NCBI RefSeq assembly: GCF_026248685.1
Contig: NZ_CP111036.1
Span: 1,612,001-1,676,000, forward strand
Origin: Haladaptatus caseinilyticus
GTDB taxonomy: Archaea > Halobacteriota > Halobacteria > Halobacteriales > Haladaptataceae
Length of the DNA: 64,000 bases
Reading direction: 5' to 3'
A program made the position numbers and the translations under genes. Positions 2,526 to 4,836 of the stretch are shown piece after piece (the stretch's first letter is position 1; each line of letters begins with the position of its first letter). The notes under the pieces were generated by a model. That model saw nothing but the letters and a program-made list of their open reading frames with translations. It was not told where the DNA came from and made no database searches.

Positions 2526-2556
2526 TTTATATACGGTCACGAACCAACTGTTGGTT
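2526..2556 (+). promoter_or_regulatory. metG promoter: TATA box followed by a perfect 15-bp palindrome
   Basis: A TATA-like element (tttatata, about 2526-2533) lies ahead of AACCAAC-T-GTTGGTT at 2542-2556, a perfect dyad with 7-bp arms. An archaeal start site is expected about 25 bp after TATA (about 2555), so the dyad fills the space between TATA and +1, a usual repressor position. The regulator is unknown. Confidence 0.45.
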
Positions 2557-2763
2557 ATGCGACGGACGACCCACGCCGACGTTCTTGCTATGCGACGCCA
2601 GCCATAGCGTCGGGAGAATCCTTCTGGGTCGACTTTTCGGGGGTGAAACCCGACAGTTCGAGTATCGTTCGGGAGCCACTGCGCTCCCCGTATTCATCAC
2701 ACAATACCATGACGAAATACCGAAACCGGCGGGTTTTACACCCGCAGCAAAGGAGATGAGAGT
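2557..2763 (+). promoter_or_regulatory. Long structured 5' leader of metG with Shine-Dalgarno
   Basis: About 205 nt separate the predicted start of transcription from metG. I see four successive perfect stem-loops: CGACGC/GCGTCG (2593-2612), TCGGG/CCCGA (2637-2653), GGGAGC/GCTCCC (2671-2688) and GCGGGT/ACCCGC (2729-2745). A strong GGAG (2752-2755) then sits 8 nt before the ATG. Most haloarchaeal mRNAs are leaderless, so a long folded leader with SD suggests post-transcriptional control. No known riboswitch class is recognised. Confidence 0.4.
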
Positions 2764-4836
2764 ATGAGCCACGACGACTATCCAACCGAGGAACCTGCGG
2801 TGGTGACCTGCGGGCTTCCCTACGCGAACGGGGACCTGCATATCGGCCACTTGCGAACCTACGTTAGCGGTGACGTGCTGTCCCGCGCATTGAAACAACT
2901 CGGCCAGCAGACGGCCTTCGTCTCCGGGTCGGATATGCACGGGACGCCGGTGGCGGTCAACGCCGAGAAGGAAGGCGTCTCGCCCCGCGAGTTCGCGCTT
3001 CGCCACCACGAACAGTACGAAGCGACGTTCCCGAAGTTCAACATCGAGTTCGACAACTACGGCCACACCGACGACGAGACCAACACGGAACTCACCCGCG
3101 AAATCGTCCGTGAACTGGAAGACGGCGGCTACATCTACGAAAAAGAGATCAAGGTCGCATGGGACCCGACCGAGGAAACGCCGCTTCCCGACCGGTACGT
3201 GGAGGGAACGTGTCCCTACTGTGACGAGCACGCCCGCGGCGACGAATGTGACGAGGGCTGTGGTCGGCACCTCGAACCGGGGGAAATCGAGAACCCTGTC
3301 TCCACCGTCACCGGCAACCCCGCGGAGTACCGTGAGCGGACGCACAAGTTCTTCCGCGTCTCGGAACTTCAGGAGTACCTCCAGGGATTCATCGACCGCC
3401 TCGAAGGGACGAGCAACGCGCAGAACCAGCCCCGCGAATGGATCGAGGGCGAACTCCAAGATTGGTGTATCTCCCGCGACATGGACTGGGGAATCGACTA
3501 TCCGGGCGAAGGTGCCGAGGACCTCGTTCTGTATGTCTGGGTGGACGCACCCATCGAATACGTCTCTTCGACCAAGCAGTACACCGAGCGCGTCGGTTCC
3601 GACGCCTACGACTGGGAGGACGTCTGGAAGGAGAGCGGCGAAATCATCCACATCATCGGCCGAGACATCATCCAACATCACACCGTCTTCTGGCCCGCGA
3701 TGCTCCACGCCGTCGGCTACAACGAACCACGTGCCGTCATGGCCAGCGGCTTCGTCAACCTGAACGACAAAGGTTTCTCGACCAGTCGTAATCGAGCGGT
3801 CTGGGCCGACGACTATCTGGACGAAGGGTTCGATCCCGACCTCCTGCGCTACTATCTCAGTACGACCGGCGGGTTCGAGCGCGACGTGAACTTCTCGTGG
3901 GACCAGTTCCAGGAGCGCGTCAACGGCGAACTCGTCGGCACGGTCGGTAACTTCGTCTATCGAAGCCTGCTCTTCGCCGCGCGAAACTACGACGGTGCGC
4001 CGGACGCCGAAGTCAGCGAGGAAGTACGCCACCGCATCGAATCCGCCATCGACGACTTCGCAGCGGCCGTCAACGACTACTCGCTCAAGGATATCGGCGA
4101 CGCCGCGACCTCGCTCGCCTCCTTCGGCAACGAGTACATTCAACGCAACGAACCATGGAAACTGACCGACGACGACCCCGAACGTGCGGAACAGGTCATC
4201 TACGACTGTGTTCAGCTGTCGAAGGCGCTCGCGGTGCTTTACGCGCCGCTCCTGCCCGGCAAAGCCGAAGCCCTCTGGTCGCAGTTGGACGAAGACGGCT
4301 CGGTTCACGACGCGACCATCGAGGACGCCCTCGCCGCGCCGCGCGGCGACTTCGGCGAACCCGACGAACTGTTCGGCAAAATCGAGGACGAACGGGTCGA
4401 AGAGCTGAACGAGAAGCTGCAAGCGAGCATCGAAGCGGCTACGTCAGACGACGAGGAAGATGGAAGCGAAACCGTGAGCGACGACGAATCAACGACGGAC
4501 GACGAATCGGCTTCGGACGAACGCATCGGCTTCGACGAGTTCCAGAACCTCGACCTACGCGTCGGGCGCATCGAATCGGCAGCGCCGATCGAGGGTGCGG
4601 ACGACCTCCTTCGGCTCGAAGTCGATATCGGCAGCGAGACACGACAGATCGTTGCAGGATTGAAACAGCTTCACGACGTGGACGATCTGGAAGGGAAAAA
4701 CATCGTGGTCGTCGCCAACTTGGAAAAGGCCGAACTGTTCGGCGTCGAGAGTAATGGTATGGTGCTCGCGGCGGGCGAACAGGCCGACCTGCTGACGACC
4801 CACGAAAACGCGGAACCCGGTACGAAGATCAAGTAA
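2764..4836 (+). CDS. metG: Methionyl-tRNA synthetase with C-terminal tRNA-binding domain
   Basis: 690 residues. The class I HIGH motif is at residues 21-24 (DLHIGHLRTY). A zinc-knuckle insertion CPYCDEHARGDECDEGCGRH follows, and the KMSKS equivalent is KGFSTS after FVNLND. An acidic linker (about residues 555-585) leads to an OB-fold EMAP/Trbp111 domain (DLRVGRIESA to MVLAAG). It charges initiator and elongator tRNA-Met in the cytoplasm. The start is fixed by GGAG 8 nt upstream. A 631-codon open frame on the opposite strand is a base-composition shadow. Confidence 0.96.
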   Translation: MSHDDYPTEEPAVVTCGLPYANGDLHIGHLRTYVSGDVLSRALKQLGQQTAFVSGSDMHGTPVAVNAEKEGVSPREFALRHHEQYEATFPKFNIEFDNYGHTDDETNTELTREIVRELEDGGYIYEKEIKVAWDPTEETPLPDRYVEGTCPYCDEHARGDECDEGCGRHLEPGEIENPVSTVTGNPAEYRERTHKFFRVSELQEYLQGFIDRLEGTSNAQNQPREWIEGELQDWCISRDMDWGIDYPGEGAEDLVLYVWVDAPIEYVSSTKQYTERVGSDAYDWEDVWKESGEIIHIIGRDIIQHHTVFWPAMLHAVGYNEPRAVMASGFVNLNDKGFSTSRNRAVWADDYLDEGFDPDLLRYYLSTTGGFERDVNFSWDQFQERVNGELVGTVGNFVYRSLLFAARNYDGAPDAEVSEEVRHRIESAIDDFAAAVNDYSLKDIGDAATSLASFGNEYIQRNEPWKLTDDDPERAEQVIYDCVQLSKALAVLYAPLLPGKAEALWSQLDEDGSVHDATIEDALAAPRGDFGEPDELFGKIEDERVEELNEKLQASIEAATSDDEEDGSETVSDDESTTDDESASDERIGFDEFQNLDLRVGRIESAAPIEGADDLLRLEVDIGSETRQIVAGLKQLHDVDDLEGKNIVVVANLEKAELFGVESNGMVLAAGEQADLLTTHENAEPGTKIK

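Follow-up and report, generated by a model that had tools for sequence, protein, structure and literature searches.

The pheST and trp attenuators of Escherichia coli combine a short open reading frame (ORF), in which a run of cognate codons stands close to the end, and a hairpin that follows it. Bacterial T-box riboswitches control synthetase genes by tRNA charging and bind the tRNA directly, without an ORF, and the E. coli thrS operator carries an anticodon-like hairpin that is bound by ThrRS. The literature suggests that leader-peptide control of synthetase genes, known in bacteria, has not been described in archaea. A 2021 study knew of no archaeal example of transcription attenuation or antitermination (PMC8448881), and our literature search found no archaeal leader-peptide attenuation. 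In Haloferax volcanii, dRNA-seq placed upstream ORFs (uORFs) in long 5'-UTRs, among them those of pheS (26 aa) and a tryptophan--tRNA ligase gene (23 aa) (Babski et al., 2016, PMC4983044, Table 2). That table does not list metG, and the part of the report that deals with these uORFs gives no reading in terms of cognate codons, hairpins or attenuation.

Here we describe the region upstream of metG in the window (the whole 64,000-nt stretch of DNA that was analysed). The gene (2764-4836, plus strand) encodes a methionine--tRNA ligase of 690 aa, which scores above the cut-off of the NCBIfam models NF001100 (842 bits) and TIGR00398 and has its nearest relatives in Haladaptatus. Its leader resembles the bacterial attenuators in its short ORF, late cognate codons, RNA hairpin and cognate synthetase gene downstream, and the haloarchaeal pheS leaders share with them the runs of Phe codons at the end of the ORF. 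Unlike the bacterial attenuators, the metG leader ORF would be read from a leaderless mRNA, a second putative leaderless promoter lies between leader and gene, and no intrinsic terminator (a GC stem with a U-run) was found in 2450-2900; this absence excludes only a bacterial-type terminator, because archaeal termination differs. We also know of no bacterial attenuators that share a GGA/GAA hairpin. With the T-boxes the leader would have in common the control of a synthetase gene by tRNA charging, but it contains an ORF and gives no T-box match. It is comparable to the thrS operator as a synthetase leader RNA, and the UCAUA loop of some metG leaders resembles the Met anticodon loop, yet the metG loop is not conserved across haloarchaea and the leader includes an ORF with cognate codons.

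The upstream ORF and the conserved hairpin

A preliminary description of this DNA presented the 207 nt before metG as a folded leader with four consecutive perfect stem-loops. All four are present on the plus strand: stem 1, or hairpin A (2593-2612), pairs CGACGC (2593-2598) with GCGTCG (2607-2612) and has a folding energy of -9.7 kcal/mol; stem 2 pairs TCGGG (2637-2641) with CCCGA (2649-2653); stem 3 pairs GGGAGC (2671-2676) with GCTCCC (2683-2688); and stem 4 is the palindrome GCGGG-TTTTACA-CCCGC (arms 2729-2733 and 2741-2745), with the motif TTTTA (2734-2738) inside. As a functional unit the set does not hold up, for the region is barely more stable than its shuffles (fold z = -1.59, with 13 of 200 shuffles folding as well) and evolution keeps a different pairing, P1 (2609-2614/2649-2654). 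The 5' arm of P1 shares positions with stem 1, which also covers the tail and stop codon of an upstream ORF that the preliminary description lacked, and stem 2 is a competitor for the 3' arm. Stem 3, not seen in relatives when metG leaders were compared, is likely a chance folding of the GC-rich spacer, and stem 4 lies at -35 to -19 relative to metG. The summed stems are weak evidence, and the signal emerged from the comparison of metG upstream regions. The sample comprised 80 named haloarchaeal loci and about 50 further genomes, from which simple custom scripts extracted ORFs and hairpins. The genomes are related, so that the counts given below are not independent events, and the pattern recurs across several families and three genes.

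The upstream ORF spans 2557-2607 (plus strand) and encodes in 16 codons the peptide MRRTTHADVLAMRRQP, ending at a TAG stop codon (2605-2607). It is preceded by a TATA box, TTTATATA (2526-2533, plus strand), whose spacing from the ATG at 2557 is similar to that of the metG TATA; relatives have a TATA-like box at the same spacing. We call the corresponding promoter P(u) and predict its transcription start at or beside position 2557, which would make the ORF leaderless. A near-terminal Met codon (2590-2592, plus strand), the predicted stall codon, is conserved and lies 19 nt before P1. An in-frame ORF with a Met-containing end was found at 26 of 29 loci of the Haladaptatus-type family and in other haloarchaeal families as well, with homologues in Haladaptataceae, Natrialbaceae, Haloferacales and others, for example MTATGLPDNMRMRAFF, MTVAVVPDARSMRT and MPVTVRTRSEPDRSARAMRMRMQSDA (GTG starts are rendered as M). 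These ORFs drift in their N-terminal part and retain, close to the end, between one and three Met codons. An ORF finder that was blind to the peptide sequence, using start, stop and TATA spacing only, returned leaderless ORFs at 82 of 120 metG loci; roughly one in three metG loci in haloarchaea has no upstream ORF. The start placed by the TATA box is in frame with the last Met codon at 46 metG loci, against one locus in each of the other two frames. The distance from the last Met codon to P1 has a median of 19 nt (54 metG loci), and that from the stop codon to P1 varies.

The ORF is followed by the conserved leader hairpin (2609-2654, plus strand), identified from covariation and family sequences. 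Its outer helix, P1, pairs GUCGGG (2609-2614) with CCCGAC (2649-2654) and encloses an internal loop, GAA/GAA here (2616-2618/2645-2647) and GGA/GAA in most relatives, then a short P2 (2619-2621/2641-2643) and a terminal stem-loop. Covariation among the metG leaders of relatives, which the preliminary description had proposed as a check, was found in this hairpin: an alignment of 17 diverse sequences, made without reference to structure, has 81.6% of its cells paired versus 31-47% in slid controls, and 11 of 19 hairpin pairs have changes on both sides. RNAalifold recovers the same helices. Within the Haladaptatus-type family, P1 ranges from GUCGGG/CCCGAC through GCCGGG/CCCGGC to GCCGAG/CUCGGC. 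The idea of a regulatory leader on metG is borne out in that a conserved leader with covariation exists, with this hairpin in place of the four stems. The helix at 2609-2614/2649-2654 is not in itself unusually stable.

A scan of 391 genomes with a covariance model of the hairpin (R1) gave 51 matches, never more than one in a genome, and 48 of the 50 examined lie directly upstream of metG on the metG strand; the two away from metG (L129 and L130) are chance matches inside coding genes. The model is tuned to Natrialbaceae, so that 51 is a lower bound for the hairpin class, and the hairpin at 2609-2654 itself scores weakly (18.9 bits, E 0.4). The hairpin seems to represent an undescribed RNA family, and several of the micro-ORFs seem to be unannotated. 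Its loop reads GUCAUA in many Natrialbaceae and Halobacteriales (including L041, L045 and L060), GUAACG or GUGACG in Haloferacales, and is different again in Haladaptatus; the first resembles the Met anticodon loop and the GUAACG and GUGACG loops do not. We dropped tRNA mimicry through the UCAUA loop as a candidate mechanism, since Haloferacales and Haladaptatus have other loops.

Parallel leaders at pheS and trpS2

The uORFs listed for H. volcanii by Babski et al. (PMC4983044) led us to examine pheS and the tryptophan--tRNA ligase gene, and at both genes we found upstream ORFs as in that list. In the genome under study, pheS (L142, G000:C1, about 1288900) is preceded by a leaderless ORF, MPSESHRGSIAVESRPATGFGFFTAA, and then by a GGA/GAA hairpin. 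This layout is common to many haloarchaea, in which the pheS ORFs end in a Phe run (GFGFFFAR, GFDFFFAA, AFRPFFA). The trpS2-type gene of the same genome (L162; G000:C2, 77920) has the upstream ORF MYPSATAGGRFWPTTAH. Other trpS2 loci (L163-L174) likewise have ORFs with Trp codons, and RWRWR and PWRWW are among the trpS2 motifs. The Trp codons lie in a loop that is closed by a strong stem within the ORF. The peptide-blind finder returned leaderless ORFs at 21 of 28 pheS and 10 of 13 trpS2 loci, compared with 1 of 20 for hisS, 3 of 20 for ileS and 4 of 20 for thrS as control genes. Each set of peptides is rich in its own amino acid. Met makes up 9.6% of the residues in metG ORFs versus 0.5% in pheS and 0.9% in trpS2 ORFs; Phe accounts for 11.8% in pheS ORFs versus 3.1 and 2.6% in the other two sets; and Trp reaches 9.0% in trpS2 ORFs versus 0.6 and 0.0%.

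The pheS leaders also match those of metG in geometry. The TATA-placed start is in frame with a Phe codon at 16 loci versus one in each of the other frames, and the last Phe codon precedes P1 by a median of 18 nt. The model built on metG detects pheS leaders (best E 7e-4), and the P1 of the pheS hairpin covaries; in the reciprocal search, a pheS-built model (R2) of only seven pairs found no metG leaders. These results are suggestive of a common origin of the two hairpins. By eye, several pheS leaders also contain a hairpin overlapping a P1 arm, such as GCCCGG-UGAC-CCGGGC. A pattern scan of the genome under study for further copies of the leader was too unspecific to be useful.

Proposed leader-peptide control and its alternatives

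The comparison thus recovers several parts of a leader-peptide attenuator: an ORF with cognate codons, agreement between its amino acid and the synthetase downstream (Met for metG, Phe for pheS, Trp for trpS2) and a downstream structure at a distance relevant to the ribosome. We think it likely that the metG leader is under leader-peptide control, in which a stalling ribosome senses the cognate codons. Comparative sequence evidence supports the existence of the ORF and its reading frame, the presence of cognate codons at a fixed distance from the hairpin, the covariation of that hairpin, and the Phe and Trp parallels. RNA polymerase would start at P(u), and the leaderless transcript would open with an ORF of 13-40 codons that has Met codons at its end. 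With ample charged tRNA-Met, the ribosome would reach the stop codon by the hairpin and cover the 5' arm of the hairpin. With too little, it would stall about 19 nt before P1, at the Met codon, leaving P1 (2609-2614/2649-2654) free to form with its GGA/GAA internal loop. Judged by the usual ribosome footprint, a ribosome at that Met codon would end just short of P1, and one at the stop codon would cover the P1 5' arm. The formation of P1 would then alter either the continuation of the transcript into metG or the translation of metG, and a second promoter (2729-2745) would supply a basal leaderless metG mRNA. We infer the stalling itself, P1 as the ON state and the level of control (transcription versus translation or mRNA stability). 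Our preference is for transcription, through coupling and premature termination; archaeal attenuation could proceed by factor-dependent termination, and hairpin A could compete with P1 when no ribosome is present.

Extended to haloarchaea at large, the proposal is one of translation-coupled attenuators in which leaderless Met, Phe or Trp peptides, with a common GGA/GAA hairpin in metG and pheS, control the matching synthetases; we regard its prospects as evenly balanced. If true, this would be the first archaeal attenuation or antitermination system and would imply that ribosome and RNA polymerase are functionally coupled in these organisms. The candidate is widespread, has parallel Met, Phe and Trp cases, and occurs in a group with a genetically tractable member, Haloferax. 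It makes two questions accessible to codon swaps: does the ribosome guide RNA polymerase in archaeal regulation, and by what means is tRNA charging sensed in archaea?

Alternatively, the hairpin itself could be the receptor, for methionine, SAM, uncharged tRNA-Met or MetRS, with an anticodon-like UCAUA loop as a possible contact. The restriction of the covarying hairpin to metG in the R1 scan and the GUCAUA loop of many Natrialbaceae and Halobacteriales are consistent with such binding, which is nevertheless improbable: Haloferacales have a GUAACG-like loop and Haladaptatus yet another one, pheS carries the same hairpin type, and the cognate codons of the ORF are left unexplained. Further, an Rfam scan gave no riboswitch or T-box match at the leader, its lone match being a chance sR51 elsewhere on the opposite strand. 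The preliminary description had named methionine, SAM or uncharged tRNA as the signal; sensing of the charged tRNA-Met supply is the most likely of such readings, and the Met codons in the ORF and the same hairpin type at pheS speak against a methionine or SAM aptamer. Equally hard to credit is the view that the ORF is a gene in its own right, which encodes a small functional peptide, carries its own conserved 3' hairpin (for stability, for example) and adjoins metG only incidentally. The ORF and metG each appear to have a leaderless promoter, and small proteins are common in haloarchaea, as the H. volcanii report notes (PMC4983044). However, the peptide is unconserved except for its Met-containing end, pheS and trpS2 share the layout with the cognate residue substituted, and 48 of the 50 inspected matches adjoin metG.

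The predicted metG-proximal promoter and a Shine-Dalgarno-like sequence

Among 116 non-identical haloarchaeal metG upstream regions, the distance from TTTTA to the ATG is exactly 26 nt in 83 and between 25 and 31 nt in 108, the constant TATA-to-start spacing expected of a leaderless gene. The spacing is also kept at loci that lack a leader or upstream ORF and where the palindrome has decayed. TTWT is the TATA motif reported for haloarchaea (PMC4983044). Given the fixed distance to the ATG and the variable sequence between, we read stem 4 (2729-2745) as most likely the TATA region for a leaderless metG mRNA and as its predicted core promoter. The preliminary description had set a transcription start just before the ATG against its leader; such a start probably exists for one of the two promoters, as stem 4 looks like a promoter. 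Some H. volcanii genes are reported to have both leaderless and long transcripts (PMC4983044). With a leaderless promoter that is probably its own, metG need not depend on the leader for most of its expression.

These elements also invite a purely DNA-level explanation: two promoters, an operator formed by the palindrome that spans the metG TATA, and nothing regulated by RNA. The palindrome and the TATA box at a fixed distance do occur in genomes without the ORF, but the conservation of the reading frame, the cognate codons and the compensatory changes in the hairpin would go unaccounted for, and we judge this explanation quite improbable. Chance folding of a GC-rich spacer, for which the modest fold z of the region might speak, is very improbable given the cross-species covariation and conservation, which already refute it for the P1 hairpin. 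The palindrome itself has compensatory changes in many genomes, including some without the leader, and is a possible operator. Two 28-nt arms, one on the 3' side of the hairpin (2638-2665) and one at the metG promoter element (2717-2744), are 75% complementary, with no covariation to back their pairing. Pairing of the P1 3' arm with the promoter palindrome was rejected, since P1 changes from GGGU/ACCC to GAGU/ACUC in L007, L064 and L073 with the promoter element unchanged.

Leader-peptide control presupposes transcripts that run from P(u) into metG, and a Shine-Dalgarno-like GGAG (2752-2755, plus strand), seen here and at relatives' loci, bears on these. GGAG or GAGG precedes metG at 24 of 27 leader-bearing loci of the Haladaptatus-type family and at neither of the two without a leader, against a background of 30 in 261 windows. 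Because a leaderless mRNA would not include it, only a long read-through transcript could make use of it; read-through from the upstream promoter is thus probably real here. Within this family, a second, divergent metG copy (L310, G393:C2:444178-444708) and the metG locus L293 have neither the leader nor a Shine-Dalgarno-like sequence. Farther upstream of metG, positions 1806-2456 hold a 216-aa ORF without an NCBIfam match, a homologue of which, judged by eye, apparently also lies upstream of metG in L057, L058 and L077.
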